This document shows, piece by piece, positions 8,250 through 44,220 of a DNA stretch of 61,907 nucleotides. Source of the DNA: an uncultured Bacteroidaceae bacterium (GTDB lineage: Bacteria; Bacteroidota; Bacteroidia; Bacteroidales; Bacteroidaceae); the NCBI GenBank assembly GCA_905234745.1, contig CAJOJD010000002.1:645-62551 (forward strand). The letters are read 5' to 3'. The notes beneath the pieces were generated by a model. That model had not been told where the DNA came from and searched no databases. It worked only from the letters and a program-made list of their open reading frames with translations. The number at the start of each line of letters is the position of its first letter. The first letter of the stretch is position 1. Made by a program: the position numbers and the translations under genes.

Positions 8250-8767
8250 CTTTCTCTCATTTCAAAGCGGGCCATCACAAAAAACAGGTCCGATAAGCGG
8301 TTAATGAACGTCAGAATATCCTGAGGAACCGGATCCTCACGATTCAGAGTCCAGAGACGGCGCTCGGCCCTACGCGCCACAGTGCGTGCAAAATGCAGTT
8401 GTGCCGCAAGAGGCGTTCCTCCGGGCAGCACAAAGACCCCTTTATCCGTAATGGCCTGCGTCATCCTGTCCATCCACTCCTCACAGAAACCAATCATTCC
8501 GGAATCAAAGACTTTCGGATTCTTATCACGTATGGCAGACGGTGTTGCCACCTGACTCATCAAAGTCATCAGTTCGGTCTGTATCCTGTTCAGTCCCTGC
8601 TGCCACTCATCATCGGCCTTAAGCAGACTGCGTACTATACCTATCTGGGCATTCAGTTCATCCAGGCAACCGTTAGCCTCGATGCGGATATCGTCCTTGG
8701 GCACACGCTCACCGCCGTGTATTCCGGTGGTGCCGTCATCGCCTGTACGTGTATATATTCTTTTCAT
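8246..8767 (-). CDS. Cob(I)alamin adenosyltransferase, PduO type
   Basis: This enzyme transfers the adenosyl group of ATP to cob(I)alamin or a corrinoid intermediate. It has the PduO/MMAB signature: IYTRTGDDGTTGIHGGERVPK at the N-terminus for ATP, ANGCLDELNAQIG, then the C-terminal FARTVARRAERRLW and FINRLSDLFFVMAR. I start it at ATG 8767 (MKRIYTRTGD), which overlaps the preceding stop by ATGA. A TTG three codons upstream is less likely. PduO-type enzymes commonly stand in for CobA in Bacteroidetes cobalamin clusters. Confidence 0.93.
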   Translation of the reverse strand: MKRIYTRTGDDGTTGIHGGERVPKDDIRIEANGCLDELNAQIGIVRSLLKADDEWQQGLNRIQTELMTLMSQVATPSAIRDKNPKVFDSGMIGFCEEWMDRMTQAITDKGVFVLPGGTPLAAQLHFARTVARRAERRLWTLNREDPVPQDILTFINRLSDLFFVMARFEMRER

Positions 8768-9093
8768 AATTCCCAAAATGCGTTGATATCGGCCTCACCC
8801 CAATACCAGTGGGTGTAACCTGCTATCACATTCTTGTATCTGAACAGCTCCGTATCCACTTTCTCACCCCGCGCATCAAACTGAAGTGACGCAAAACGAA
8901 ACGACCCCTTTGCGTCATTTTCCAAAAGTGACGCATTGTTAAACGACCCCTTTGCGTCAATTTTGGAGTAGTGGAACTCGTGGCCCTTGAACACTTTGCC
9001 GTTTATCTCAATGCTACGGTAACCCAGGTGCAGGCGGGCGCCCTCCATGGTGCACTCAATTGGCAGCACTCCGGCCACATCATCCCGCCGCAC
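8764..9093 (-). pseudogene. cbiA: Cobyrinate a,c-diamide synthase, C-terminal fragment with in-frame palindromic repeats
   Basis: This is the end of the CbiA glutamine amidotransferase domain in its own frame. AGVLPIECTMEGARLHLGYR, KGHEFHYSK (catalytic histidine region) and GYTHWYWGE match the family. It is out of frame with the piece carrying the cysteine nucleophile, and the GTG at 9093 is probably not a real start. Between HYSKI and QFDARG the protein holds the translated 31-bp palindromes as two copies of DAKGSF..AS, a segment longer than expected for this loop. The stop overlaps the adenosyltransferase start by ATGA. Confidence 0.82.
8887..8959. repeat. 31-bp palindromic element, tandem copies 2 and 3, inside cbiA
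   Basis: Copy 2 (8887-8917) is identical over 31 bp to copy 1. Copy 3 (8929-8959) differs in the middle, reading TGACGCATTGTTAAACGACC and then CCTTTGCGTCA. The copies start 42 nt apart, a multiple of three, and both are open in the cbiA frame on the minus strand, giving DAKGSFRFAS and DAKGSFNNAS. They therefore add residues without a stop. Confidence 0.88.
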
Positions 9094-9341
9094 TCGGCAA
9101 AGATTCGCCCGCCACGCTCTGCATACTGCACCAACTGCGATGCCAGCATGCGGTTAAGAGACAACTCGGGGGCAAACAGTTCCGGATAGCCGCCCGGCAG
9201 ATAGACCAGATCAGCCTCCGGCAGTTCATCGCCAGCCAGCGGACTGAAGAAGGTCACCTCGCCCATCTCCCTTAGCCTATCAATATTCTCCCTATAAGTG
9301 AAATTGAAGGCCCTGTCCTTAGCAATGGCAATTCTCATCAT
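9003..9341 (-). pseudogene. cbiA: Cobyrinate a,c-diamide synthase, amidotransferase domain 5' fragment
   Basis: This piece begins MMRIAIAKDRAFNFTY, the usual start of the GATase-3 domain of CbiA, and continues through LPGGYPELFAPELSLNR to IFAECGGMM, which has the nucleophilic cysteine. After AECGGMM the frame runs on as unrelated sequence, while the true continuation (AGVLPIEC) is in another frame. Remembered homologues have about 15 more residues here. ATG 9341 overlaps the upstream stop by ATGA, so the split from the ATPase domain may be a genuine gene fission at a domain border. Confidence 0.8.
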
Positions 9342-9991
9342 AGCTGATCCAGGTTTATATGTTTCTCTATCAGATCAGCTGTCAGATCCGCCAACTTGTT
9401 TATCTCCTGCTCCACGCCTATGGTGAGTCCAAGGTGTCTGGAAGGAACTTCAATGCCTTCGGTGCGTGGAATCCATCCCAGGCTGGGAACGCCGGCGTCA
9501 TCGGCCGCTGCCTTAAGGAATGAGTAATGTGACTCAGACGCCACCTGGTTGAATACAACACCGGCTATTTTGACATCGGACCTGAAAGTCTTCATGCCAT
9601 GCAGAAGCGCCGCCACGGTATAGGCCGATGACCGCGCATTCATAACCAGAACCACAGGCACACCGAGCAGAGCAGCGATCTCGGCGCTGCTGCCACGCAT
9701 ACGGTCATAACCGTCAAACAGGCCCATTACACCTTCTATCACGGCTGCATCGGCCCCCTCACAATAATGTGCGTATACCTCACGAACGTGTTCGGGCGAT
9801 GCCATCCAGGTATCAAGGTTGACCGATTCCCGTCCGGCCGCTATGCTGTGAAACTGCGTATCAATATAGTCAGGGCCGCACTTGAAAGGCTGCACACGGA
9901 GTCTGCGACGGCTTAAAGCACGTAACAGCCCCATGGTGAATGTGGTCTTTCCGCTGCCCGACGTAGCAGCCCCTATCAGCAACTGAATCAT
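9338..9991 (-). CDS. cbiA: Cobyrinate a,c-diamide synthase, ATPase domain
   Basis: CbiA amidates the a and c side chains of cobyrinate. These 217 residues are the N-terminal CobQ/CobB-type ATPase domain: P-loop GAATSGSGKTTFTMGLL, then PFKCGPDYIDTQFHS, NLDTWM, VIEGVMGLFDGYD and VVLVMNARSSAYT. The frame ends at the start of the interdomain linker (NLDQL, stop), and the amidotransferase domain starts with an overlapping ATGA. It is the first gene of the leftward cobalamin operon and shares its upstream region with the riboswitch-controlled uptake operon. I saw no minus-strand riboswitch for it. Confidence 0.9.
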   Translation of the reverse strand: MIQLLIGAATSGSGKTTFTMGLLRALSRRRLRVQPFKCGPDYIDTQFHSIAAGRESVNLDTWMASPEHVREVYAHYCEGADAAVIEGVMGLFDGYDRMRGSSAEIAALLGVPVVLVMNARSSAYTVAALLHGMKTFRSDVKIAGVVFNQVASESHYSFLKAAADDAGVPSLGWIPRTEGIEVPSRHLGLTIGVEQEINKLADLTADLIEKHINLDQL

Positions 9992-10032
9992 TCAATTTCA
10001 ATTAGAGAGTATAAAGATAATGAATTATTACT

Positions 10033-10040
10033 TATTTTTG
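10033..10040 (+). promoter_or_regulatory. Candidate -7 element of the B12 uptake operon
   Basis: TATTTTTG fits the Bacteroidetes TAnnTTTG -7 consensus and lies just before the riboswitch. No clear TTTG is found at the expected -33 distance, so support is moderate. Confidence 0.45.
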
Positions 10041-10044
10041 CCGT

Positions 10045-10225
10045 GTCTTGTTCCGATACTCTTTTCAGAGTTAAAGATTAAAAGGGAATCAGGTGAGAAT
10101 CCTGAACAGACCCGCTGCTGTAAGCCCTCAAAAAAGGGATGTCCAATTGCCGCAAGTGCCACTGCCCGTATGGGTGGGAAGGCGGACAGACCGGGGTAAG
10201 TCAGAAGACCTGCTAGACGTTATAT
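10045..10225 (+). promoter_or_regulatory. Cobalamin riboswitch
   Basis: The plus strand carries the conserved cobalamin aptamer blocks in order: AAAGGGAATCAGGTGAGAAT at 10080-10099, GACCCGCTGCTGTAAGCC around 10109-10126 (the B12 box region), GTGCCACTG followed by GGGTGGGAAGGCGGACAGAC, and AGTCAGAAGACCTGC at 10200-10214. Ends are approximate. It precedes four B12-uptake genes and should lower their expression when cobalamin is present. No clear terminator with a T-run follows, so control at translation initiation is possible. Confidence 0.93.
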
Positions 10226-28875: not shown

Positions 28876-31011
28876 TTACATTGACTCTATCTTGTTCAAC
28901 ATCTTGACGGTTGCCTTGATTGCCGCCTCGGTCTGGTCGGCATCAAGTCCGCGTGTCTTGAACTCGGAACCCTTGAAACTCCATGTGATTATGGTCTGTA
29001 CAAAGGCATCGGTACGGCCTCCGGGCGGGATTGATACCGTATAGTTGGTCAGAACCGGGAAGGGTTTGTCAAGGCTGGCGTATATCTTGCGCAGCGCACG
29101 CACAAAGGCGTCATACTGACCGTCACCGGTAGCAGCCTCCTGATACGGTTTGCCGTCAATCTCAATCTTGACGGTAGCCTGAGGACGCAAGCCCTGAGTG
29201 AGACTGAGCGAATAGTTCAGTATGCGGATTCTCTGCTCCTCCTGTTCGTGATGAAGTACATCATGAACAATGTAAGGCAGGTCATCCTGTGTAACCTGTT
29301 CCTTCTTTACACCAAGTTCAATGATTCGGTCGGTTACCTTACGCATGGACTCCTCGTCAAGCTCAATACCCATGGCCATAAGGTTCATCTGGATATTGGC
29401 CTTACCGCTGTTCTTGCCAAGGGCGTATTCACGCACGCGGCCAAAGCGCTCGGGCAGCAGGGCATTATAGTAAAGGTTATCCTTCTTGTCACCATCGGCA
29501 TGAACGCCAGCGCACTGGGTAAAGACGAACTCACCCACCACAGGCATGTTGTGCGGAATATGTATGCCGCTGTCCATCTCGACCTTACGGCTCACCTTGA
29601 ACAGGCGGTTCTCATTCAGTCCGGTCTCAACGCCCATCTGGTCCCTGAGCATGGCCATAACGCTGCCCAAAGGTGCATTTCCCGCACGCTCGCCAAGGCC
29701 GTTCACGGTTACATGAAGGCCCTGCACGCCAGCCTTGACTGCCGCATAGACATTGGCCACAGCCAGGTCATAGTCATTGTGTGCATGGAAATCAAAATGT
29801 ATCGCAGGATAACGCTCCACCATGCGGCGGCAGTACTCTAAAGTGGTATCGGGGTTGAGGATTCCCAATGTGTCGGGCAGCATCACACGCTTAATAGGCA
29901 TGGTGCTCAAAGCATCCATCAACTCAAACACATACTTGGGCGAGCGCTTCATACCATTGCTCCAGTCCTCAAGATATATGTTCACCTCCATACCGCGGCT
30001 TACGGCATACTCAACGGTGCTCAGGATATCGGCTATATGCTGTGCGGCAGTCTTGCCCAACTGGGCGGTCACATGCTTGAGGCTACCCTTGCAGAGCAGG
30101 TTCATCACATGACATCCGGCACCCAGAATCCAATCGGCCGAGCGGTTCTGGTCAACAAATCCCAGCACCTCGATGCGGTTCAGCAGTCCGTTCTTATCGG
30201 CCCATTCGGCAATGCCGCGCACGCAATCCTGCTCGCGGTCAGATACCATGGCCGATGCAATCTCCACGCGGTCCACGTTCAGGTCCGACAGCAGTGACTG
30301 CGCTATGCTGAGTTTCTCCTGATTTGAGAAACTTACGCCCGATGTCTGCTCACCGTCACGCAACGTGGTGTCCATTATCTCGATGTAACGTCCGCGTGCG
30401 GCACGGCTCTCATATGCCTCGATATCGGCCTTGCGTGAAAGCAGGTAGTCAATATCGTCATAACCGTTCATCAGGCACAGTTTCTTGTAGCCGTCTATCT
30501 CAAACTTCTCGGAGTGTCCGTTGGAGAGGTTGGTTACGGTCTGCGCCTCAAGGTCTACCCTCACGCGAGTCGCTGCGTCACGGTTGATGCTTGCCATAAG
30601 CTCATCGCGGAAAGCGGTGCTCACGGTTACCGGCAGCACAAAGCAGTTGAGCAGGTTGCCACGGTGTATATCGGCGAAACGGTCCGATATCACCACCCTG
30701 ATGCCGTAACCGGCTATAGCCCAGGCGGCATGCTCGCGGCTTGATCCGGAGCCCCAGTTGGTACCGGCCACCAGAATCTCGTGGCAGCCCTCGTGGGGGC
30801 GCTCGCTGAATTCGGGACGGTTCAGCACGAAATCAGTCACCGGAGTGCCGGCGGCATCATAGCGCAGATCATGCATGAACGCATCGCCGAAATAGCCCAG
30901 ATCACGCGTGGTAGCAGCCATATATCGGGCCGGGATAATCAGGTCCGTGTTGCAGTTGTCTATATTGATCGGAATACAGGTTGATTCCACTATACTCATC
31001 TTCTTTTCCAT
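28876..31011 (-). CDS. Fusion of 3-isopropylmalate dehydratase small subunit and a LeuA/citramalate-synthase-like enzyme
   Basis: About 711 residues with two enzyme domains. Residues 1-195 are LeuD: PINIDNCNTDLIIPARYM, WGSGSSREHAAWA, SDRFADIHRGNLLNCFVLPV and the typical end YDDIDYLLSRKADIEAYE. A short linker (SRAARGRYI) leads to a DRE-TIM synthase: [51 protein letters not shown], and a C-terminal LeuA-type regulatory domain. The synthase may make citramalate, 2-isopropylmalate or a homologue. I chose ATG 31011; a GTG at 31017 overlapping the leuC stop is an alternative. There is no internal Met at the domain border. Confidence 0.88.
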   Translation of the reverse strand: MEKKMSIVESTCIPINIDNCNTDLIIPARYMAATTRDLGYFGDAFMHDLRYDAAGTPVTDFVLNRPEFSERPHEGCHEILVAGTNWGSGSSREHAAWAIAGYGIRVVISDRFADIHRGNLLNCFVLPVTVSTAFRDELMASINRDAATRVRVDLEAQTVTNLSNGHSEKFEIDGYKKLCLMNGYDDIDYLLSRKADIEAYESRAARGRYIEIMDTTLRDGEQTSGVSFSNQEKLSIAQSLLSDLNVDRVEIASAMVSDREQDCVRGIAEWADKNGLLNRIEVLGFVDQNRSADWILGAGCHVMNLLCKGSLKHVTAQLGKTAAQHIADILSTVEYAVSRGMEVNIYLEDWSNGMKRSPKYVFELMDALSTMPIKRVMLPDTLGILNPDTTLEYCRRMVERYPAIHFDFHAHNDYDLAVANVYAAVKAGVQGLHVTVNGLGERAGNAPLGSVMAMLRDQMGVETGLNENRLFKVSRKVEMDSGIHIPHNMPVVGEFVFTQCAGVHADGDKKDNLYYNALLPERFGRVREYALGKNSGKANIQMNLMAMGIELDEESMRKVTDRIIELGVKKEQVTQDDLPYIVHDVLHHEQEEQRIRILNYSLSLTQGLRPQATVKIEIDGKPYQEAATGDGQYDAFVRALRKIYASLDKPFPVLTNYTVSIPPGGRTDAFVQTIITWSFKGSEFKTRGLDADQTEAAIKATVKMLNKIESM

Positions 31012-31013
31012 AG

Positions 31014-32408
31014 TCACAAGAGTTTTCGGGGGTCTGTTATCACACCGGTCACGGCACTTGCCGCCACAGTAAGAGGACTTGCCAGAATGGTTCTGGAGCC
31101 GGGTCCCTGACGGCCCACAAAGTTACGGTTCGACGTGGATATGCACAGCTTTCCTGCAGGGACCTTATCCGGGTTCATGGCAAGACAGGCCGAGCATGAA
31201 GGCAGGCGCAGTTCAAAACCGGCCTCCTCAAGTATCTTGTCTATACCCTCCTCTATTATCTGCTTGCGCACCAGCCATGATCCGGGAACCAACCATGCAG
31301 TAACGTTAGGAGCCTTGCGGCGGCCCTGTACCACACTTGCAAAAGCACGAAAGTCTTCTATACGACCGTTGGTGCAGGCACCCAGGAAACACCAGTCAAT
31401 TGGCGTGCCCTCCAGTTTCTGTCCTGGAGCAAACTGCATATAATCCAACTGTGTCTTGAGTTGTGTTCTCTCCGCAGCACTCAGCCCCTCATATGAGGGA
31501 ACGACACCATCTATAGCTATGCCTGCACCCGGGTTGGTTCCGTATGTGATTCGCGGCTGCATATCATCGGCATAGAAGGTAACCTCCTTGTCAAACACGG
31601 CATCATCGTCCGTGCGCAATTCACGCCACCTGGCCACGGCGCGGTCCCAATCCACACCCTTGGGGGCGAATTCGCGGCTGCGCAGCCAACTGAACGTGGT
31701 CTCATCGGGAGCAATCAGTCCGGCGCGGCTGCCCATCTCGATCGACAGGTTTGACAGCGTAAGGCGTCCTTCCATGGACATCTCGCGAATGACACGTCCG
31801 GCATACTCCACGGCATAACCCGTAGCACCCGATGTGGTCATCTGCGACATGATATAGAGAGCCACATCCTTTGCCGTAACTCCTTTTCCCAGTTCACCCT
31901 CAATGTTTATGCGCATGGTCTTGGGCTTGCGCTGCAACAGGCACTGTGATGACAGTATCTGTGCCACCTCGGATGTGCCGATGCCCATTGCGATTGCACC
32001 CAACGCGCCGTGGGTCGATGTATGTGAATCGCCGCACATGATTGTCATTCCCGGCAGTGACAGTGCCTTCTCGGGGCCAACCACATGGATTATTCCGTTA
32101 TCCGGCGTACCCATACCAAAGTATCTTATCCCAAACTCACGGCAGTTACGCTCCAATGCCTCCACCTGCTTACGGCCCACGGCATCGTCAATACGCTCCT
32201 GCTGGTCCGACGGGGTGTTATGGTCTGGCATTGCGACTATCCTTTCGGGACGCAGCACGCCGCAGCCCTTGTCGCGGATGGCATCAAAAGCCTGAGGAGT
32301 GGTCACCTCATGGCAATACAGCCTGTCTATATAGAGCAGGTCCGGCCCGTCGGGCACCGATTGCACCACATGGGCGCTCCATATCTTGTCAAACAGTGTC
32401 TTACCCAT
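31014..32408 (-). CDS. leuC: 3-isopropylmalate dehydratase large subunit
   Basis: LeuC, with the LeuD domain of the next gene, isomerises 2- to 3-isopropylmalate with a [4Fe-4S] cluster. The 464-residue protein shows [34 protein letters not shown], and the cluster cysteines in [15 protein letters not shown] and [14 protein letters not shown]. The start is inside the end of leuA (overlap 8 nt). Confidence 0.95.
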
Positions 32409-34176: not shown

Positions 34177-35862
34177 ATGGTTATGACTTATACAGACATT
34201 AAAAAGGGCATTACGGTTCTGTTGATACTATTCCTGAGCACAGCTGCAAAAGCAATTCCCGCCAAACCCGGACAGACACGTCAGATCACGCTTGATGACG
34301 GCACCACTGAAACCGCACTTCTGGTAGGCGATGAGTATGGTCACTACTGGCTTACCCAAGACGGCAGAGCATACATGGGCGTAGGCGATTCATATGTACC
34401 TGTCGATAAACAGTTTGTACAGGAAAAAGCCAAGATACGCCGAAATAAAGCCAACCAACGCCGCACCGCACGTCTTGCCCCTTCACGCGGATCAAAAGCC
34501 CACGAGCATTTTTCCGGACAGAAGAAAGGACTCATAATTATGGTAAACTTTGCCAACAAGTCCTTCCAGGAAGACCATACCGACTCACTGTTTAACGAGA
34601 TAGCCAATCGCGAAAACTACCAATCGGCCCCTTTCAAGGGCTCCATGTATGACTACTTCCGCGACCAAAGCCGGGGAGAGTTCCTGTTGAACTTTGATAT
34701 AGCGGGTCCGGTCAATCTAAGTAAGGATTATGAATATTACGGAACCAATGATTCCAAGGGCTATGACCTACATCCCGGCGAAATGGTAATAGAGGCACTT
34801 GAACTGGCCGATTCCATTGTAGACTATTCAGATTATGACTGGGATGGTGACGGTACTGTAGAACAAGTCTATGTGATCTATGCCGGAAAGGGTGAGGCCG
34901 ACGGAGGCGCCACAAAAACCATATGGCCGCATGAATTCACCCTGTATGAGGCCTATATCGGCGGTGACGGTTCCGGTCCCCAGATTCTGGATAGTGTAGA
35001 AATCAACACATACGCTTGCGGAAGTGAGCTTAACGGCTTGGGCAAGGTAGCCGGAATAGGAACCATGTGTCATGAATTCAGCCATTGCCTGGGTTACCCT
35101 GACTTCTATGATACAGACTACAGCGGCGGACAGGGTATGTTTGAATGGGACCTTATGGATACAGGGTCCTATAACAATAACGGTTACCTGCCGGCTGGAT
35201 TCACCAGTTATGAACGCTGGTTTGCCGGATGGTTGGAACCCACAGAACTGACTGAAACCACGACAGTCAGCAATATGCCCGATTTACAGAACGGAGGCGG
35301 TTCATACATAATCCACAATAAAGGATACCGCAACGAGTATTTCCTTCTGGAGAACCGTCAGAAAACAAAATGGGATGCGGGTATTCCAGGTGCCGGACTG
35401 CTTATCCTTCACGTCGATTATGATGAAAAAGTCTGGAACAGGAACGAGCCCAACGAGGATCCCGACCACCAGCGTATGACATGGATTGCGGCCGATGGCG
35501 AATACCAGAAATCCGAGTACGACGGTCAGTGGTACTGCACCACCACAGGAGCCGCCAACGACCCCTTCCCGTACGATACAGTGAATGCCTTCAACGCCAC
35601 CACGACACCTGCGGCAGTCTTCTATAATCTGAATTCAGACGGCACATACAATCTTGACTCGTCAATAGAAGACATTACACAGAACGCAGACGGTACCGTT
35701 TCCTTCAAGTTTGTCGTTCCCACCACAGGCGTACCCACAATCAATGTCAAGTCAGGATCAGGCAACAACCGTTGGTATGACATGAACGGTCGTCCGCTTG
35801 ACAGGATGCCCGACGCTCCGGGTCTTTACATAGGTAACGGAAACAAAGTTCTGATAAAGTGA
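34177..35862 (+). CDS. Secreted M6-family metalloprotease with C-terminal sorting-like tail
   Basis: A 561-residue exported protease. After a signal peptide (ending about AAKAIPAKPG) and a propeptide-like region come GLIIMVNFANKSFQEDH, the start of the M6 domain, and the zinc site HEFSHCLGYPD at about residue 298 (HExxHxxGxxD), then FEWDLMDTGSYN. The last 30 residues (WYDMNGRPLDRMPDAPGLYI to KVLIK) match the tail of the 1137-residue protein at 39224-42637. The stop overlaps the kinase-like gene by ATGA, so this protease is translationally coupled to a peptide-modification and export set. It may process the exported peptide or be a cargo. Confidence 0.9.
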   Translation: MVMTYTDIKKGITVLLILFLSTAAKAIPAKPGQTRQITLDDGTTETALLVGDEYGHYWLTQDGRAYMGVGDSYVPVDKQFVQEKAKIRRNKANQRRTARLAPSRGSKAHEHFSGQKKGLIIMVNFANKSFQEDHTDSLFNEIANRENYQSAPFKGSMYDYFRDQSRGEFLLNFDIAGPVNLSKDYEYYGTNDSKGYDLHPGEMVIEALELADSIVDYSDYDWDGDGTVEQVYVIYAGKGEADGGATKTIWPHEFTLYEAYIGGDGSGPQILDSVEINTYACGSELNGLGKVAGIGTMCHEFSHCLGYPDFYDTDYSGGQGMFEWDLMDTGSYNNNGYLPAGFTSYERWFAGWLEPTELTETTTVSNMPDLQNGGGSYIIHNKGYRNEYFLLENRQKTKWDAGIPGAGLLILHVDYDEKVWNRNEPNEDPDHQRMTWIAADGEYQKSEYDGQWYCTTTGAANDPFPYDTVNAFNATTTPAAVFYNLNSDGTYNLDSSIEDITQNADGTVSFKFVVPTTGVPTINVKSGSGNNRWYDMNGRPLDRMPDAPGLYIGNGNKVLIK

Positions 35863-36722
35863 TCGGGACCAGGCTCTACATAGTTGCAGACCATCTGTTT
35901 TTGGTCAAGGCCGATGAAACCGTTCTGGCCCGGATGACCAACTATGAGCCGTTCCGTACTGATAAAGCCGATGTTTCCGATGCGCTGTTCGCTCTCACCG
36001 TAATTGAGGGAGCGCCCGTTTCCTACATAGAGGAGTGGCGTCAGGATGAGGAGGGACAGGAGACCATATGCGGTCACACCGAGGATGGGAAATCCGTTTT
36101 TGAGTACCGGTTCGGCGGCAAGACTGCGGGATGGCTGGTATGCACGCCGGGATACAGGGATGGAACGCTTCATCTCAGCGGATTCCAGTCCAAGTCCGCG
36201 CTTGACAACTCCCTGATGATACAGTTCGCAATGGCATCGGCCTGTCTGGGAACAGTGCTGTTCCATGCGGCAGTGGTGAATCTGGATGGACGCGGATATA
36301 TGTTCCTGGGCAAGAGCGGCACGGGTAAGAGCACCCATGCAAGACTGTGGCTCCAGAACATTCCCGGCACTGAGCTGATGAATGATGACAACCCTGCGGT
36401 TCGCGTAAAGCCGGACGGCACAGCCGTTGTATATGGTACTCCCTGGAGCGGTAAGACTCCATGTTACCGCAACGTAAGTGCTCCGCTTGGAGGGATTGTG
36501 CTTCTGAGTCAGGCACCATACAATAAGATTGTGCGCCTTCAAGGCATAGGTGCATACGCGGCAGTGGTGCCCAGCATATCTGGCAAGCGTTGGGATTCAC
36601 GCATTGCCGACGGACTGCATGAGACAGAGAACGCTCTGGCAGGCAACATACCGGTATGGCATCTGGACTGTCTGCCCGATGCCGATGCCGCACACACATG
36701 TAAAGATGCAATCGCCATATGA
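35859..36722 (+). CDS. HPr kinase/phosphorylase-like protein
   Basis: A 287-residue cytoplasmic protein. YMFLGKSGTGKSTHARLW (about residues 147-164) is a P-loop in the arrangement of the HprK C-terminal domain. MNDDNPAVRVKPDG and YGTPWSGKTP follow, as in HprK-related kinases that accompany PqqD proteins and S24/S26 peptidases in modified-peptide clusters. There is no HPr phosphotransfer context here, so it probably acts on a peptide or another small substrate. It overlaps both neighbours by ATGA. Confidence 0.8.
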   Translation: MIGTRLYIVADHLFLVKADETVLARMTNYEPFRTDKADVSDALFALTVIEGAPVSYIEEWRQDEEGQETICGHTEDGKSVFEYRFGGKTAGWLVCTPGYRDGTLHLSGFQSKSALDNSLMIQFAMASACLGTVLFHAAVVNLDGRGYMFLGKSGTGKSTHARLWLQNIPGTELMNDDNPAVRVKPDGTAVVYGTPWSGKTPCYRNVSAPLGGIVLLSQAPYNKIVRLQGIGAYAAVVPSISGKRWDSRIADGLHETENALAGNIPVWHLDCLPDADAAHTCKDAIAI

Positions 36723-37165
36723 CCGATGGGCAGATCATAAAAGAGGCCGTGCGCCTGGTGGCTGACGGAGTGAGCGTAACGTTCCCCGTCAAGGGCCGAA
36801 GCATGATTCCGTTCATAGTCGGCGGACGCGAGAGCGTGGTGCTGCAGAAACCTGATGACCTCAAGGTGGGTCATGTGGTGCTGGCAGAGATAGCCCCTGA
36901 GCACTATGTGGTACACCGCATCATACGCATCGGCCCCGATGACCGGATTACCCTTATGGGTGACGGCAACATACGCGGCACCGAGAGTTGCAGACGGGAG
37001 CATGTGCTGGCACGGGCCACTCATGTGGTCGATGCACAGGGACAGCGCCGCACTTTGGAGTCAAAAGGGCAGATTTTCAAAGCCAGAGTATGGTACAGGA
37101 TACGTCTGTTCCGCAGGATCATACTGGCCGTTTTAAGAAGAACCTGTAAGAAATACGCATTATGA
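36719..37165 (+). CDS. S24/S26-family peptidase
   Basis: A 148-residue protein with the signal-peptidase-like fold. VTFPVKGRSMIPFI holds the serine nucleophile (GRSM) and YVVHRIIRIGPDDRITLMGDG has the HR motif of the Ser-His (ER/SipW-like) type in place of the bacterial catalytic lysine. A basic hydrophobic C-terminus (YRIRLFRRIILAVLRRT) may touch the membrane. Such proteins regularly sit beside HPrK-like and PqqD genes. Its substrate might be the small peptide encoded at 39038-39196, but this is inference. Confidence 0.8.
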   Translation: MTDGQIIKEAVRLVADGVSVTFPVKGRSMIPFIVGGRESVVLQKPDDLKVGHVVLAEIAPEHYVVHRIIRIGPDDRITLMGDGNIRGTESCRREHVLARATHVVDAQGQRRTLESKGQIFKARVWYRIRLFRRIILAVLRRTCKKYAL

Positions 37166-37431
37166 AGATAAAGAAAGGATATATTCTACGCACTGTGTGC
37201 GGCGAGAACGTGATAGTTGGAGAAGGCCTGGATGCAATCAACTTCGGGCGCATGCTCTCTCTGAACGAGACTGCCGCATTTATCTGGAAAAAGGCACAGG
37301 AATACGGTGAATTCACGGCCGAAAGACTGGCTGTCGCAGTATGTCACGAATATGACGTTGACCTGCTTCGGGCCAGGAACGATGTAAAGGAAACTCTGGA
37401 CAACTGGACTAAACTGGGTGTAATAGAATGA
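37162..37431 (+). CDS. PqqD-family peptide-recognition protein
   Basis: An 89-residue protein of the PqqD family, a winged helix that binds the leader part of precursor peptides and passes them to modifying enzymes. Visible features are the N-terminal strand region KKGYILRTVCGENVIVG, LNETAAFIWKKAQEYGEFTAE and the C-terminal VKETLDNWTKLGVIE. It overlaps the neighbours on both sides by ATGA. Its presence is the strongest hint that this operon handles a ribosomally made peptide. Confidence 0.87.
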   Translation: MKIKKGYILRTVCGENVIVGEGLDAINFGRMLSLNETAAFIWKKAQEYGEFTAERLAVAVCHEYDVDLLRARNDVKETLDNWTKLGVIE

Positions 37432-39041
37432 AATATTCAAGTTGGATATGGCGTAACACACAAGGCATCCGCTGGAACACGGCGGTGCGCATAGTTACAG
37501 GCACTGCACAGGTGGCGCTTGGCCTGCTTATGGTATGGCTTAGCCGCCGCTTCATAGATGAGACCATCCACACCGGATCGGCCCATGACGTAACCGTCAT
37601 GATCATCTGGCTGGTGCTGACCGTAGTTGGCGGAGTGCTGCTGCGTCAGGTCTATTTCCTGCTCACCACCAAGGCAAGCATCCGCCAGACCAACGCCATC
37701 CGCCTGCGTATGTTTAGCGGGCTTTTCCGCCGCCAGCTATATGACGAGAAAGAGATACACTCCGGTGACATCAGTTCACGCCTTACCAAGGATATCGAGG
37801 TGGTGTCCGATACCACCACCGATACCCTACCCCAAATGTGCATTACCTGCATCCAGCTTATTGGTGCATTCCTGCTGCTCCATTACTTTGACCGCTGGCT
37901 TGCATGGGCTCTGCTCATAATGACACCGCTTGCAATACTGATGGCCAAGTTCATAGGCCGTAAATTGCGTCAGATGACTCTTGACATACGCCAGGACGAG
38001 AGCCGCATCCAGATGCAGGTACAGGAGGGCATGGAGAACAACGCCGTACTGCGCGCCATGGGCAGCCAGGAGTGGATGACCGGCCGTCTGGACTCCGCTC
38101 AGCGGCAACTCAAAGGCAACATCATGCGCCGTACCCGCTTTACCATAATGATTCGCATCATACTGGGCAGCGCGTTCGGACTGGGTTACCTGCTGGCATT
38201 CGTATGGGGAGGCCTGCAACTGCGCAACGGCGCAATAACATTCGGTATAATGACATCGTTCCTGCAACTGGTAGGCCAGATACAGCACCCCGTAATGCAG
38301 CTGCTCAACCTGGTGCCGCAGGTAATACACTCCACCGCCAGCATAGACCGTCTGGCCGAGCTTGAGGACAATGCCGTGGCCGATACCGGCACGCTGCACC
38401 CTACCCTTAGCGGAATACGTTTTGAGAACGTCAACTTCAGGTATGCAAGCGGTGACCGCCAGATACTGACCGGTTTCAGTCATGATTTCCAGCCCGGCAC
38501 CAAGACCGCACTTATGGGTGAGACCGGTATAGGCAAGACTACCCTGTTCCGACTTATGCTGGGATTCATCAGCCCCGACAGCGGCAACATAAGCCTTTAT
38601 GGCTCCGACAATTCCCTTACCGCAGGCGCCGAGACCCGCCCCGACTTTGTGTTTGTACCTCAGGGCAATACACTCATGAGCGGCACCATCCGCTTCAACC
38701 TGCAGGTGGCCAATCCGGATGCATCGGACGAACAACTTATTGAGGCTCTGCACACCGCCTGCGCAGATTTTGTACAGGAACTCCCCGACGGTCTTGACAC
38801 AATGCTCGGCGAACGCGGCAGCGGTCTCAGCGAAGGCCAGGCCCAAAGAATAGCAATAGCCCGGGGCTTACTGCGCCCGGGCTCCATATTGCTCCTTGAT
38901 GAGATAAGTTCGTCTCTTGATCCCGAGACAGAGACTGAGCTCTACGCCCGCCTCTTCAAGGCTTATCCCAGCAAGACTATGATCTTTATCACTCACCGCA
39001 CCGCAGTCACAACTCTCTGCGACTCGGTGCTGACACTCTAA
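37428..39041 (+). CDS. ABC exporter, fused permease and ATPase
   Basis: A 537-residue half-transporter. About six membrane helices in residues 1-310 are followed by an ATPase domain: Walker A GETGIGKTT, Q-loop region FVPQGNTLMSGTIRFN, signature LSEGQAQR, Walker B ILLLDEISSSLD and H-loop FITHRTA. No N-terminal C39 peptidase domain is present, so leader removal, if any, must use another protease such as the S24/S26 or M6 protein. Its stop overlaps by a few bases the stop of the small-peptide gene on the other strand. Confidence 0.92.
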   Translation: MKYSSWIWRNTQGIRWNTAVRIVTGTAQVALGLLMVWLSRRFIDETIHTGSAHDVTVMIIWLVLTVVGGVLLRQVYFLLTTKASIRQTNAIRLRMFSGLFRRQLYDEKEIHSGDISSRLTKDIEVVSDTTTDTLPQMCITCIQLIGAFLLLHYFDRWLAWALLIMTPLAILMAKFIGRKLRQMTLDIRQDESRIQMQVQEGMENNAVLRAMGSQEWMTGRLDSAQRQLKGNIMRRTRFTIMIRIILGSAFGLGYLLAFVWGGLQLRNGAITFGIMTSFLQLVGQIQHPVMQLLNLVPQVIHSTASIDRLAELEDNAVADTGTLHPTLSGIRFENVNFRYASGDRQILTGFSHDFQPGTKTALMGETGIGKTTLFRLMLGFISPDSGNISLYGSDNSLTAGAETRPDFVFVPQGNTLMSGTIRFNLQVANPDASDEQLIEALHTACADFVQELPDGLDTMLGERGSGLSEGQAQRIAIARGLLRPGSILLLDEISSSLDPETETELYARLFKAYPSKTMIFITHRTAVTTLCDSVLTL

Positions 39042-39196
39042 GCCAACAGGTTATCCTCTGACTGGCCAATACCGGGAATCTGAGAGAAGCCGTTGCCCCA
39101 ACCTGGGGGTAATGACCTGTCTCCACTTCCGCAGAGTATGCCGGTTGTCTCAATGTTTATAACCTCAGTTACGGGCTTGCTGTATATCTTTTTCAT
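39038..39196 (-). CDS. 52-residue candidate precursor peptide
   Basis: An intact small frame from ATG 39196 to TAG 39038-39040. It begins MKKIYSKPVTEVINIET, passes TGILCGSG and ends in a Gly/Pro-rich segment (SLPPGWGNGFSQIPGIG) and SEDNLLA. The N-terminal pattern MKK-Y-x-KP-x-x-x-V-x-x-I, followed by a small-residue G-S-G site, is one I recognise from short Bacteroidales proteins near peptide-modification genes. The gene lies tail to tail with the ABC exporter and downstream of the 1137-residue protein gene. Leader and core would divide near CGSG. Not experimentally known to me. Confidence 0.7.
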   Translation of the reverse strand: MKKIYSKPVTEVINIETTGILCGSGDRSLPPGWGNGFSQIPGIGQSEDNLLA

Positions 39197-39223: not shown

Positions 39224-42200
39224 TTACTTTATCATCACTTTAGAGCCCTTGTTGTTAAGGTAAATACCAGGCTGTGTTGGCATACCGTCCACTGAACGTC
39301 CGTTCATGTCAAACCACTTTTCTATAGTGATATCACCGCTCTCCACATCTATCGTGCCCACAGCAGTAACATCTCCGCCAGTTCCCAGAAGACGAACCTT
39401 GATGCGGTCAGGAGCACTGGCAATGGCACCGTCTCTTGATGGAGCATGCAATGCAGCATCGCTGCCAGCATATGTTAGGAATGCACGGAACGGCGATATA
39501 AATGCGCCGCTGGCCGCCTTTACAAACTGGCCTGCTTCAACATCAGTTACGCCATCAGTTGCTTTACCGCTTGTGGCGGCAAATCCGAATACGGTACCGG
39601 AGAACGGATCATCACCGTAATCCAGGTAGCTGTAAGTGCCGTGGAATGTCCAGTCACCGCTATTGGTTGTACCCTCAGTTACTGATGCAGATGCCGTGCC
39701 GCTGAACGTCACTTCGTCGTCAGAATCAGGCATAAACAGGTACGGAGTATTGGCATTGGTTGATGTAACTTCATTACCCGGACCTGGGGTAGCATCAATC
39801 ATCGTTGCAACCCAACCTTCTTGAGCATCGTATGTCACATCCTGAAACTCATAGACCTTACCGCCGCTAATGCTCGTCATAGCAAACGGCAAGCATATGG
39901 TCGATGCCTTACCCGCTGTGAATGTACGGTTAAACTCCACTTCTTTTTCTGCAATCAGAGAAGCTATCTGGCCTGTAATACCATAAGACTCACTTACTGC
40001 ATATCCTGAACTGACAGTAGTAGCAGCATTAGGCATAGTGAACGACCAAGTTCCATTTCCATTATCTGAAGCATCGTTTCCGTTATATGTAACATTTGTA
40101 AGAGTCAATCCGGCATTAGCGGATCCTAATGTGACGGTTGACTGTTTTGTGTAATACTCTTTATTGTCGTAAGTTACACCATCTGCATAAACTATATTAC
40201 TCCCGGATATTATTGTTCCATTTGTCCGCGTAACTGTAATGCCTACAGGATGTGTCAAGGCATAAACAGAAACGGCACCATTGTTTGTCGAAACATCTTC
40301 ATTTGAATTGATACCGACACCTATAGTATTATTTCCAACCGTGCAGTTATAGTAGTAATTGTACCGTAACGCGCCATCACCGGATCCTGTAATAGCCCCT
40401 TTACTTGAAACATTGGGTATCGTAACTCCTGCAGCAAAACAATCCCTGATAACACCAGGGCTATTGTTTACACCCGCAATTCCGCCATATCTATAGCCTC
40501 CTCCTGCATCCATTGAAATTGTGACGGAACTGACACAACGCTGGATCGTCCCTTGGTTTTGACCAGCAATTCCACCATGTTCGTATGCATTATCATGAGC
40601 AGCGTTTATTACAGTATTTCTTACTGTACAATTCTCTATTGTACCATGGTTATAGCCTGCTATACCGCCTGTAACATCATATCCCGTAATACGGGCATTT
40701 ATAAGATTTACATTCCTTACACTACCACTGTTATTTATATAACCGAACAAGCCTTGATGACCATCATTTACATAACTATCACCGCTCTTATAAATCCGCA
40801 CTCCACTGATGGTATGGTTTTGGCCATTGAAGTTGCCTCCAAATGTATGATTGTAATCACCAATACGACTGTAATTCGTCTGTGTAGAACTTTTGTTCCA
40901 AGCTTTTTCATAAGAGTATGAAATGTCAGCACCCAATACGAAATAGACACTACTACAACTGTTTCCTTTGCTGACATAACTTGCCAGATATTCAAGACCT
41001 TTAGTGGTGGTAATACAATAAGGATTCTCAATGGTACCGTCTGCTCCATTACCCATTCCCCAAACGTCAGTCCAATTGGCTGTAAATACCAAATCACCGT
41101 CACGAGAGTTTTGTGGAATAGTGACGTCTCTATTCGGCACATTACCGTTGCTGCCCGTCCATCCTTCAAAGTAATAACCAAATTTGGTCGGTTCCTTCAG
41201 CGTGATGGATGACGTCTCCCAGGCATAACTGGTGGGATTATTGGCCGTGCCGCCGTCCAAGTCGTAGCTGATAGTGTAAACACGGCTGGCATCCAAACCG
41301 GTGCCCAAGTCCTGGTTTAAAGATCCGCTAAAAGCATTGCCGGCCAGGTCGCTGATAGTGCCTCTCATGCCGGTAATCTTCAATGTACCGCTGGCATCAC
41401 GTATTATTGTACCGCTGAAGGTAAGCACATTGCTTCCGCTAGTACCGCTCACCAAATTAAGTGAACCCCAGGAAGTAGAGAGTCTGGCATCACTGCTTGT
41501 CACAATTTCATTGAAAGCCACGCTTACATACACCGGATTGCCCTTAGCGTGATAACCAGGGGCCACTGAAACTGCCAATGTAGTAGGTGCAGAGCCTTCC
41601 ACGGCCTGGATGTGTGCCGTGACGTTCTTGGCCCACCACTCATCGTTGTCGGTACCGCCACCTGATGCATTGCAACGCACAGCAATGAAGCTGAAATCCA
41701 TAGGAAGGAGAAGCCTACCATCAGAAGCACGACGGTTTGTATTGAACTTTTGCATGCTTAGAATATAGCTTGTACCGTAGTCCCACGGATTATCGTTTCC
41801 TGCATTGTTGCCAACAGAAGTAACAGGGAAACTGTAACTCTTGTACTCCGTATCCTTACCGTTGGTCTTGTGCTCAAAGCCTGCCATGTACCATGAATTG
41901 TTGATATTGCCAGGATTACCGTTGGAGCAATCTTTACGATTATCATATAAGGTTGTAGAATTCAAGATTGACATATACTGATAACCGTCATTCTGCTCCT
42001 TGACATCCATACTGAGCGTCATACGAAGTTCGGCACCGACAAACTGATAGTAAGCCTTAGGTGCAGCATTGTTAAAGAAAGCGGTGTAGGACACCGATTT
42101 GACGGTATTACTTTCATAACCTGCATCTGTGTTCTGATACTCGGATTCCTGAATGACTACGTCCTTGACGGCGAAAGCACCTGAAGAAGGTACACTGGTG

Positions 42201-42637
42201 CCCGTATTGAAGCTGCGGGTTTTGTCAACCAGGAAGAAACCTTCAACGTCAGTTACCTCCAGCTTATAGTTGCGGCTGGTGCTCGTCTGATACTTGTAAG
42301 CGTTGGTACTGGCTGCCTGCTCCGTTACGGTAACGGTTCTGCTGGTTTCGTCACCGGCTGTAAAAGTAAACTCGCCGCTCAACTCATTGGAGTTTACGCC
42401 ATTAACCTTGGTCACATTATAGTGCTGCCCTTCGTATGCACTCAAGTTCACCAGACGGTACTTTACCGTCTCTGCCACCGATGTGTTGTCACGGGTAATG
42501 GTAAATGTTGTAACGTTGTCGCTGGTGCTGGAGCTAATATTCCAGCCATTCTCGGCCCAAGCATTCTGTCCTACTGTCATGCTAACGACCAGAAGCATGA
42601 CTTTGATGATTCGGTTTAGAATAAAGTCTCTTTTCAT
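39224..42637 (-). CDS. Large secreted GLUG/InlB-repeat surface protein
   Basis: A 1137-residue exported protein of the adhesin-like type; no enzyme domain is seen. It has a signal peptide (ending QNAWAE), beta-rich domains to about residue 450, a Listeria-Bacteroides repeat (YTISYDLDGGTANNP ... FEGWTGSNGN, about 455-530), then GLUG-type repeats (GGIAGYNHGTIENCTV, GGIAGQNQGTIQRCV, GGIAGVNNSPGVIRDC, about 640-750). The tail WFDMNGRSVDGMP ... KVMIK matches the M6 protease end, suggesting the same sorting route. The middle (about 40000-41100) looks more AT-rich than the flanks. The start overlaps the small membrane protein stop. Confidence 0.87.
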   Translation of the reverse strand: MKRDFILNRIIKVMLLVVSMTVGQNAWAENGWNISSSTSDNVTTFTITRDNTSVAETVKYRLVNLSAYEGQHYNVTKVNGVNSNELSGEFTFTAGDETSRTVTVTEQAASTNAYKYQTSTSRNYKLEVTDVEGFFLVDKTRSFNTGTSVPSSGAFAVKDVVIQESEYQNTDAGYESNTVKSVSYTAFFNNAAPKAYYQFVGAELRMTLSMDVKEQNDGYQYMSILNSTTLYDNRKDCSNGNPGNINNSWYMAGFEHKTNGKDTEYKSYSFPVTSVGNNAGNDNPWDYGTSYILSMQKFNTNRRASDGRLLLPMDFSFIAVRCNASGGGTDNDEWWAKNVTAHIQAVEGSAPTTLAVSVAPGYHAKGNPVYVSVAFNEIVTSSDARLSTSWGSLNLVSGTSGSNVLTFSGTIIRDASGTLKITGMRGTISDLAGNAFSGSLNQDLGTGLDASRVYTISYDLDGGTANNPTSYAWETSSITLKEPTKFGYYFEGWTGSNGNVPNRDVTIPQNSRDGDLVFTANWTDVWGMGNGADGTIENPYCITTTKGLEYLASYVSKGNSCSSVYFVLGADISYSYEKAWNKSSTQTNYSRIGDYNHTFGGNFNGQNHTISGVRIYKSGDSYVNDGHQGLFGYINNSGSVRNVNLINARITGYDVTGGIAGYNHGTIENCTVRNTVINAAHDNAYEHGGIAGQNQGTIQRCVSSVTISMDAGGGYRYGGIAGVNNSPGVIRDCFAAGVTIPNVSSKGAITGSGDGALRYNYYYNCTVGNNTIGVGINSNEDVSTNNGAVSVYALTHPVGITVTRTNGTIISGSNIVYADGVTYDNKEYYTKQSTVTLGSANAGLTLTNVTYNGNDASDNGNGTWSFTMPNAATTVSSGYAVSESYGITGQIASLIAEKEVEFNRTFTAGKASTICLPFAMTSISGGKVYEFQDVTYDAQEGWVATMIDATPGPGNEVTSTNANTPYLFMPDSDDEVTFSGTASASVTEGTTNSGDWTFHGTYSYLDYGDDPFSGTVFGFAATSGKATDGVTDVEAGQFVKAASGAFISPFRAFLTYAGSDAALHAPSRDGAIASAPDRIKVRLLGTGGDVTAVGTIDVESGDITIEKWFDMNGRSVDGMPTQPGIYLNNKGSKVMIK

Positions 42638-42795
42638 ATCTGTTTGTTTCTGTTTTTTCTGTCAGACGGAGCATCGGGCCATCGTAAATCCTCGGGATGT
42701 TCACGCAAATATCTGGAGGTCTTGTACAGGCACCATATGATGTATGCCGCACAGACCACCAGGATAATTGTCATGATGATTTCAAGGGCTTTCAT
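42634..42795 (-). CDS. Small single-helix membrane protein
   Basis: A 53-residue protein from ATG 42795: MKALEIIMTIILVVCAAYII forms one membrane helix, followed by a basic and charged tail (YKTSRYLREHPEDLRWPDAP). A longer frame to 42876 has a hydrophobic start with no better support. The stop overlaps the start of the large GLUG protein by ATGA, so the two are coupled. A minus-strand TACCTTTA near 42810 could be a -7 box. Function unknown. Confidence 0.6.
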   Translation of the reverse strand: MKALEIIMTIILVVCAAYIIWCLYKTSRYLREHPEDLRWPDAPSDRKNRNKQI

Positions 42796-42922
42796 TTGGG
42801 GAGATAAAGGTACCCCATCCCCTGTCTCGGAATGGAAAGGACTAATGAAACGAGAGATAAAATAAAAAAAGCCCATATTGTTTTAAAACGTGGGCAAAGT
42901 TCGCGCGCGAGCAGATACACCC

Positions 42923-43011: not shown

Positions 43012-44220
43012 TTATATAATCGCCTCCACATCGCTGATCAGGAAATCATCCAAGCTCACGCCACCGGTTCCTACCACAAACGACCGCTTAGGACTAAATG
43101 TATCCACAAACTCGGGCAAACCGGAATTTATCCCTCTGCGGCCGCTCTTCACCTCAATGGCCGTCACCTCGCCGTCACGCACAACCACAAAATCCACCTC
43201 AAAATCACCCTGAGAAGCATTTCTCGATGGTTCACGCCAATAATACACCTTATAATCCAGCTCGTCGGCCATACTCAACAGATGAGCACCCACGGCACTC
43301 TCCACCCAGCGGCCCCATGCCTTCGTGTCCGTCCGGTCCGTTATGAACCCGCGACCCTTGTAAGCCGTCAGCAAGGCATTGTTATACACCTGATACTTGG
43401 GGATGGAACCACGTTTGCGCGCCTCATCATTGGCATATTTTTGCAAACCCGTCAACAGGGCGCACTGGTCCAGAATCTCCAGATAACCCGCAAGAGTGGT
43501 CACGTTGCCCGCATCCTGCAACTGCCCCATCATCTTCGTTAGCGACAGAATCTCGGCCGAATAGCCGCATCCCAACTCAAACAGTTGCTTCATCAGAGCC
43601 GGTTTATAGATGTTCGATGTCATGATCACGTCTTTCTCTATGGCTGGAGCCACAAGAGAGTCCTTAATATATTTCCGCCACCTGCGCTCGTCCTTTATCA
43701 TGTGTGCAGGCCCGGGATAGCCGCCAAAATAAATGTATTCATCCAGCGTCACCCCGAAGGCATCCCGCATCTCCTGCAGGCTCCAGTGCGGCATTCTAAT
43801 CAGTTCAAAACGTCCCGCCAGCGATTCCGTCAGTCCCTTCTTCAGCAGCAGACGACTACTCCCCAGCAGCACCACCTTCAGATTCACGTGATTGCGCGAG
43901 TCAGCGTCCCACTCCCGTTTCACCACCTCGCTCCAGTTCTCAATCTTCTGCACCTCGTCAATCACTAGCAGGTAATCGTCCAACTTCCGGAGCATCATCG
44001 TGGTGCGGGCAGCCTCCCAAACGCGATGAATCCAGTCGCTGTCCTTAGAATCCACCGCATCCGCCACCTCTATGGTATAAGGAATGGTCACTTGTGCCAG
44101 TACCTGATTCACTAGTGTTGACTTTCCCACCTGTCTGGGACCGGCCAGCACCTGCATGAAATTTCTGGGTTCCAGCAACCGTTCTTTTAGCGTATAGAAT
44201 TGTTTACGAATATATTCCAT
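43012..44220 (-). CDS. ATP-binding protein, AAA_14/DUF4143 type
   Basis: A 402-residue ATPase of a family present in many copies in Bacteroidales. The N-terminal part has Walker A AGPRQVGKSTLVNQV, Walker B LLVIDEVQKIENW and sensor LLGSSRLLL. The C-terminal DUF4143 part resembles a restriction-endonuclease-like nuclease fold: YYWREPSRNASQGDFEVDFVV and AIEVKSGRRG give the D...E-x-K pattern. Biological role unknown; some are suspected to be part of defence or mobile units. It has its own strong promoter and tandem repeats around its start. Confidence 0.87.
   Translation of the reverse strand: MEYIRKQFYTLKERLLEPRNFMQVLAGPRQVGKSTLVNQVLAQVTIPYTIEVADAVDSKDSDWIHRVWEAARTTMMLRKLDDYLLVIDEVQKIENWSEVVKREWDADSRNHVNLKVVLLGSSRLLLKKGLTESLAGRFELIRMPHWSLQEMRDAFGVTLDEYIYFGGYPGPAHMIKDERRWRKYIKDSLVAPAIEKDVIMTSNIYKPALMKQLFELGCGYSAEILSLTKMMGQLQDAGNVTTLAGYLEILDQCALLTGLQKYANDEARKRGSIPKYQVYNNALLTAYKGRGFITDRTDTKAWGRWVESAVGAHLLSMADELDYKVYYWREPSRNASQGDFEVDFVVVRDGEVTAIEVKSGRRGINSGLPEFVDTFSPKRSFVVGTGGVSLDDFLISDVEAII

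Follow-up and report, generated by a model that had tools for sequence, protein, structure and literature searches.

A probable lasso-like, cyclase-free peptide maturation operon and its dispersed precursor-like peptides in Bacteroidaceae

We analyzed a stretch of 61,907 nucleotides (the window) from an uncultured Bacteroidaceae bacterium, the genome of which measures 2.2 Mb in 115 contigs and is 79.9% complete. The window carries consecutive genes for an HPrK-like kinase, an S26-like protease, a PqqD-family protein and an ATP-binding cassette (ABC) exporter, faced tail to tail by a gene for a 52-residue precursor-like peptide on the other strand. On balance, these four genes probably encode a lasso-like machine, free of a cyclase, for the maturation and export of ribosomally synthesized and post-translationally modified peptides (RiPPs), serving small peptides that are encoded at dispersed sites. 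The PqqD protein would bind the conserved leader Y-x-K-P-M-x-V of the precursor, the HPrK-like enzyme, using ATP, would phosphorylate Ser or Thr of the bound precursor, the S26-like protease would remove the leader near a conserved L-L-x-[G/A/S]-S, and export of the acidic core would fall to the ABC protein. The 52-residue peptide would be one substrate among others, many of which appear to be transcribed together with the gene of a large protein bearing a common C-terminal tail (tail protein). An M6 metalloprotease encoded in front of the machine would be one such tailed protein, here placed before it. The evidence is read from sequence: the peptides form a family, this family co-occurs with the machine and pairs with tail-protein genes, and the catalytic residues are conserved.

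The peptide family and its co-occurrence with the kinase

Homologous loci were retrieved by way of the kinase. Of at least 586 loci, the best 80 (from named-species genomes, Bacteroidales and contigs labelled Fibrobacter) were joined by 20 wider regions from other relatives, giving 101 loci with the window included. Counts over the 101 loci depend on heuristic gene calls and include truncated contigs and genes outside the operon. Two regions were fetched twice (L032 equals L112, and L057 equals L122), and the contigs labelled Fibrobacter are mostly metagenome-assembled genomes, in which binning errors are possible. The peptide was found by a pattern scan and then by a profile, the seeds of which were picked by eye from that scan. 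After one chance row (L103, E 0.96) was removed from 42 matches, the profile recovered 41 related peptides in 32 of the 101 loci. The original prediction depended on a conserved small peptide near homologous operons, and such a leader-bearing family is what was found. The window peptide is 67% identical to a relative in L115, and the nearest relatives share the arrangement of the window, with the peptide gene flanked by the exporter gene and a large tail-protein gene. The order is often peptide-NTP_transf_5-HPrK-S26-PqqD-ABC on one strand in Prevotella and the contigs labelled Fibrobacter. Prevotella aff. ruminicola Tc2-24 (L057) has HPrK, S26, PqqD and ABC in this order and seven peptide matches.

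The family has a leader of the form Y-x-K-P...L-L-x-x-S and an acidic, variable core. Among 29 aligned peptides, which were picked by their K..Y..P pattern, P8 is invariant and Y5 is kept in at least 90%. A second set was assembled by position, using loci fetched through the kinase or the peptide: 50 of 55 tail genes came with a small open reading frame (ORF), 44 with a K..Y..P peptide, and 42 of these peptides are distinct; given how the loci were chosen, these shares do not describe whole genomes. An LLx(x)[ST]-type motif (a hydrophobic pair, followed after one or two residues by Ser or Thr) is present in 39 of the 42, and its Ser/Thr lies 19 or 20 positions after the Tyr in 37 of those 39. 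The core that follows has a mean length of 22 residues and is variable and rich in Asp, Gly, Glu and Pro, with a further Ser or Thr in 35 of the 39. Five pairs gave ratios of nonsynonymous to synonymous substitution rates (dN/dS) of 0.17-0.27, consistent with purifying selection on the peptide gene, although two of these pairs are saturated (dS above 1.5). A non-coding or chance ORF was rejected on the basis of dN/dS, the pairing with tail genes and the sharp leader, and the peptides appear, judged by their sequences, to be a genuine conserved leader-bearing family. None of the 29 aligned peptides had a significant model in Pfam or NCBIfam; the leading sub-threshold NCBIfam row was lasso_PadeA (NF033524, a paeninodin-family precursor), matched by 4 of the 29 with a best E of 0.029, but an unrelated model came close with an E of 0.048. 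An aromatic-acidic motif such as DDW, WDD or DDLF occurs within or at the end of several cores, whatever the remaining core (L159-L176 and others).

Of 251 genomes from the family of the window bacterium, 206 have a kinase homologue and 172 match the peptide profile. The two are found together in 166 genomes, the kinase only in 40, the peptide only in 6 and neither in 39 (P = 1.5×10−17, Fisher’s exact test, relatedness uncorrected), such that the peptide is present in 166 of 206 kinase-positive genomes versus 6 of 45 kinase-negative ones. The association persists among the 194 genomes that carry the secretion pore SprA, where the corresponding numbers are 147, 25, 6 and 16 (P = 3×10−8, again uncorrected for relatedness). 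The peptide genes are scattered; nine genomes hold between 2 and 20 apiece. The co-occurrence points strongly to the peptide family as the substrate of the machine.

The operon and its proteins

The features of the locus are as follows.

34177..35862, plus strand: M6 metalloprotease (TIGR03296; HExxHxxG), with an apparent Sec signal peptide by eye and the C-terminal tail WYDMNGRPLDRMPDAPGLYIGNGNKVLIK
35859..36722, plus strand: kinase-like protein of putative HPrK/PEPCK fold, candidate precursor Ser kinase; GTG start
36719..37165, plus strand: S26/S24-like serine protease, candidate leader peptidase; conserved Ser28, His66 and Asp82; TIGR02228 and PF00717 below cut-off
37162..37431, plus strand: PqqD-family protein (PF05402), candidate RiPP recognition element
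37428..39041, plus strand: ABC exporter (PF00664 and PF00005)
39038..39196, minus strand: 52-residue precursor-like peptide; putative leader MKKIYSKPVTEVINIETTGILCGS and putative core GDRSLPPGWGNGFSQIPGIGQSEDNLLA
39224..42637, minus strand: 1137-residue tail protein, apparently secreted, with a List_Bact_rpt domain (PF09479) and a C-terminal tail
42634..42876, minus strand: 80-residue ORF, with an ATGA overlap with the start of the 1137-residue tail-protein gene

The ORF list of the window places the five plus-strand ORFs and the facing 52-residue ORF on the minus strand where the original prediction had put them. That prediction had also described ATGA overlaps at all four junctions of a coupled five-gene operon. 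Junctions 2 to 4 are ATGA, but the M6/HPrK junction is GTGA, and the HPrK-like gene therefore starts at GTG. The exporter and peptide genes overlap tail to tail in their stop codons (39039-39041, TAA on the plus strand; 39038-39040, TAG on the minus strand). The peptide gene is the last of a minus-strand unit made up of the 80-residue ORF, the 1137-residue tail protein and the peptide; the tail-protein gene lies directly upstream of it with a gap of 27 bp, and the 80-residue ORF and the tail-protein gene are likely on one transcript.

Among the 101 loci, PqqD is present in 88, S26 in 84, ABC in 78, NTP_transf_5 in 28, M6 in seven and radical SAM in five. HPrK, S26, PqqD and ABC follow one another without interruption in 55 of 98 representative loci, bearing out the claim that HPrK-like and S26 proteins recur beside PqqD, and 38 of 77 neighboring HPrK-S26 pairs overlap by four bases. 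What lies directly upstream of the kinase in the 98 loci is varied: another same-strand gene within 150 bp (27), a gene on the opposite strand (26), NTP_transf_5 (20), a same-strand gene further away (9), M6 (6, the window included), PqqD (4), S26 (2), a tail protein (2), another kinase piece (1) or the contig end (1). The order S26-HPrK-PqqD-ABC was seen in L111, L112 and L032, and a HipBA-like pair, recognized by eye, stands directly before the operon in L111 (5679-7125) and L112 (5550-6996).

A radical SAM/SPASM protein adjoins the cassette in L080, L085 and L109, three of the five loci with a radical SAM gene. In this variant, a PqqD gene precedes the kinase, and the same leader is found on peptides that contain Cys; it is possibly a thioether-forming branch. 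These three relatives, together with the name PqqD, would suit a cassette that makes a small PQQ-like cofactor, with the peptide incidental. We consider such a cofactor most improbable and rejected it, given the lack of a radical SAM gene in the window operon, the co-occurrence of the peptide family with the kinase, and the selection acting on the peptide.

The kinase-like protein scores below every curated threshold: 16.5 bits against PF07475 (Pfam cut-off 33.3), 16.8 bits against TIGR00679 (NCBIfam cut-off 240), and 26.8 bits against its best NCBIfam row, ScmC (cut-off 125). A fold comparison had no HPrK structure among the 50 matches listed, and the HPrK profile found weak rows among the sequences of the PDB, with ABC transporters and a PEPCK at E about 0.05. 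The active-site residues of the lasso-peptide kinase BsfK (H, G, G, G, K, S, D, D) are each kept at 98-100% in 92 homologues, and with these sub-threshold scores the protein is called kinase-like on its conserved residues and a putative HPrK/PEPCK-type fold. In the accessible text of two reports, HPrK homologues phosphorylate Ser of lasso peptide precursors, and the weak activity of BsfK on a YxxPxL precursor is greatly raised by the RiPP recognition element BsfB1 (PMC8498205, PMC10368454). Phosphorylation alone would thus not be the new chemistry that had been proposed here. The related claim that the HPrK-like protein is the sole candidate modifier holds for the window operon, where the BsfK active-site residues are present, but other possible modifiers, NTP_transf_5 and radical SAM/SPASM proteins, occur in relatives.

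The protease presents a similar case, with 25.8 bits against TIGR02228 (cut-off 51.85), 18.1 bits against PF00717 (below cut-off), and weak rows among PDB sequences, the best being LexA (E 0.0016). Ser28, His66 and Asp82 are each conserved in 100% of 79 homologues. Ser with His and Asp is the catalytic set of signal peptidases of the S26B type, and the conserved residues suggest the label S26-like although the curated scores are sub-threshold. The PqqD protein is a clear member of PF05402 (50.5 bits, cut-off 23.4) but is sub-threshold for the lasso PqqD models (23.2 of 70 bits), and a PDB sequence search with its profile returned nothing of use. A separate PqqD protein alongside a leader-bearing peptide family makes its predicted part as leader binder plausible. 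The exporter fuses membrane and ATPase domains (PF00664, PF00005), and the Pfam scan agrees with the earlier description of it as lacking a peptidase domain.

Kinase-bearing lasso clusters (paeninodin, pseudomycoidin and bsf, with genes A, B1, B2, C, K, N and D) are the closest likeness in the accessible text of PMC8498205 and PMC10368454. They share with the window system a PqqD-type B1, an HPrK-homologue kinase and an ABC exporter; the lasso leader motif YxxP (PMC10368454) recurs in the peptides, and a nucleotidyltransferase occurs in part of the loci here. In its accessible text, a rumen survey describes lasso clusters, chiefly of Firmicutes, that are accompanied by genes for HPrK, PqqD and nucleotidyltransferase, and leaves Prevotella unmentioned (PMC7533575). 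By contrast with the lasso clusters, no B2 was found here, an S26-like protease is present, and the precursors are dispersed, often behind tail-protein genes. These likenesses would fit a lasso cluster whose B2 and C genes were lost or dispersed, its peptides being lasso precursors cyclized by enzymes encoded elsewhere. Yet the B2 domain Transglut_core3 (PF13471) had no match in the window genome, incomplete as it is, and it matched in six of 101 genomes searched (five over the cut-off), none of the same genus. The S26-like protease occupies the place expected for B2, and the cores have, by eye, no fixed ring acceptor or first residue. A lasso cyclase C (asparagine-synthetase-like) is absent among the operon genes, a genome-wide search for it not having been made. 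A strict lasso cluster was rejected for want of a B2 match in the window genome and of a cyclase gene in the operon, and we regard cyclization by enzymes encoded elsewhere as improbable. The system resembles the front half of a kinase-bearing lasso pathway and is not classed as lasso.

HPr-rel-A (HprK_rel_A with PqqD_rel_X) and SynChlorMet (ScmC with ScmD) likewise pair an HPrK-like protein with a PqqD-family protein, but the window proteins score far below all their cut-offs. To our knowledge, S26, ABC and YxxP peptides are not part of the descriptions of either system. The Bacteroidales RiPP clusters of PMC10352776 also combine a dedicated exporter with precursor peptides, but, unlike the window operon, they use peptidase-containing transporters and radical SAM enzymes. 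The accessible text of that paper has PqqD once, in the reference list, S26, S24 and nucleotidyltransferase nowhere, and no treatment of the operon. Searches of the open-licence literature of PubMed Central found no description of the operon, of a link between RiPP precursors and type IX secretion, or of peptide genes paired in this way with genes for large secreted surface proteins.

Tail proteins and the M6 protease

The proteins encoded before many dispersed peptides share the C-terminal tail W-Y-x-L-x-G-R-x-L...G-x-Y-I-x-N-G-K-K-V-x-I-K. A model of the tail was built from 26 seeds, among them the tails of the M6 and 1137-residue proteins; the seeds were taken from loci where tails had been noticed next to peptides, and the strongest tails are therefore biased towards having a peptide. 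Some seeds also came from several of the nine genomes. The 26 short tails matched no relevant model in Pfam or NCBIfam. The 1137-residue protein matches PF09479 (31.7 bits, cut-off 27) and falls just under the GLUG cut-off (20.2 versus 20.5). Among seven proteins scanned upstream at kinase loci, BspA-type leucine-rich repeats, List_Bact_rpt, InlB-type repeats, CUB or Cna_B were found, with none in the protein of L053. SprA (PF14349) is present in the window genome (E 2.6×10−143), and the tail proteins are type IX-like by resemblance.

A pair was scored when the end of a same-strand tail gene lay no more than 320 bp upstream of a peptide (E up to 0.05). At least 38 of the 72 peptides in nine genomes have a tail gene directly upstream, versus 0.135 expected; the 38 are a lower bound with 150 of the 235 tail matches listed, and the expected value uses all 235. 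Among the matches listed, no peptide of the 72 has a tail gene on the opposite strand or downstream within 320 bp, and the peptides behind tail genes number 9 of 10 in G233, 3 of 3 in G189, 5 of 6 in G211, 2 of 3 in G000, 1 of 2 in G133, 10 of 20 in G222, 5 of 11 in G104, 3 of 9 in G197 and 0 of 8 in G075. The reverse pairing is weaker: in G233, a single contig with 51 tail matches, 9 of 39 listed tail genes have a peptide. A strict tie of the peptide to tails starting with Trp was dropped (4 of 8 Trp tails versus 5 of 31 others in G233, P = 0.065, not significant). In L145, L146, L148 and L155, family peptides lie just upstream of lipoprotein-like genes, with no tail gene directly upstream.

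The pairing could mean that the peptides assist tail proteins as small chaperones, anchors or regulators and that the machine serves the export pathway of these proteins and makes no natural product. The excess of peptides directly behind tail genes, with none on the other strand, is what such partners would give. SprA co-occurs with both peptide (153 genomes with both, 19 peptide only, 41 SprA only, 38 neither, among 251) and kinase (172 both, 34 kinase only, 22 SprA only, 23 neither), and L113 has a tail-protein gene between S26 and PqqD (7869-10052). But 30 of the 39 listed tail genes in G233 are without a peptide, 19 of the 172 peptide-positive genomes have no SprA match, and part of the peptides have a lipoprotein-like gene, or at least no tail gene, as neighbor; we find this explanation unlikely. 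Under the preferred reading of a RiPP maturation machine, the peptides may be co-expressed signals, partners or decorations of tail proteins.

The M6 protease is well supported as such (TIGR03296, 196.5 bits, cut-off 110.8; HExxHxxG present as HEFSHCLG), and its C-terminal tail matches the tail model at E 1.3×10−17, being itself one of the 26 seeds. Its co-occurrence with HPrK-PqqD loci had been put forward as a check. It is directly upstream of HPrK in six of the 98 representative loci (the window, L078, L079, L089, L094 and L125) and in none of the same-genus loci L111-L119, and it was rejected as a core member of the operon. Relatives L031, L035, L115, L117 and L118, with kinases 75-81% identical to the window kinase, have the operon in the corresponding position next to leucine genes and no M6 in front. 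The original prediction had the protease mature the exported peptide outside the cell. The translational overlap of M6 and HPrK in the window speaks for such a part in the pathway, as do the six upstream M6 genes, which look to be more than chance as a rough judgment with no statistical test, M6 genes being present in 184 of 251 family genomes at one to six each. The relatives without M6 at the same place, and a tail of a kind common to other secreted proteins, argue against it; the proposal is left without specific support, and we rate it very improbable. The M6 protein is better seen as an occasional partner of the operon and, from its tail sequence, as one of the tailed secreted proteins.

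Two neighboring genes were also noted. A 713-residue ORF at 28876-31017 resembles, by eye, LeuD fused to an isopropylmalate/citramalate synthase-like domain; it adjoins leuC-like and leuA-like genes, and several relatives have ORFs of 712-714 residues at the same place. A 402-residue ATPase at 43012-44220 is AAA_14/DUF4143-like by eye, and a similar gene adjoins the operon in L034.

Weight of the evidence and meaning

Several observations weigh against a dedicated maturation machine for these peptides. There are 40 kinase-positive genomes (of 206) with no peptide match and six peptide-positive ones with no kinase match, and the Fisher tests ignore the relatedness of the genomes. Most peptide genes lie away from the HPrK-S26-PqqD-ABC operon. 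In the window genome, one peptide of three neighbors a lipoprotein-like gene instead of following a tail gene, and none of the eight in G075 follows one, among the matches listed. HPrK and S26 score under every curated cut-off, and the cores have no obvious shared chemistry. Taken as a whole, what the original prediction observed is partly confirmed, and how it was interpreted is partly supported.

A bolder proposal is that of a distinct RiPP-like class spanning two phyla, in which linear, acidic, Ser-phosphorylated peptides, whose genes are numerous and dispersed and in many cases have a secreted surface protein as partner, are served by a cyclase-free PqqD-HPrK-S26-ABC machine, with nucleotidyltransferase or radical SAM modification in some species, and in which this central machine decorates or reports on changing secreted proteins. 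In this full form it is tentative, and we would not count on it, but there is a fair chance that the system is a separate class. If the maturation machine is real, much of this family as sampled here (kinase in 206 of 251 genomes, peptides in 172 of 251), which is found among gut and rumen bacteria, would make undescribed processed peptides. A lasso-type kinase and recognition protein would then be separated from lasso cyclization, an HPrK-PqqD pair would have a natural substrate, and a peptide pathway would be linked to secreted surface proteins.

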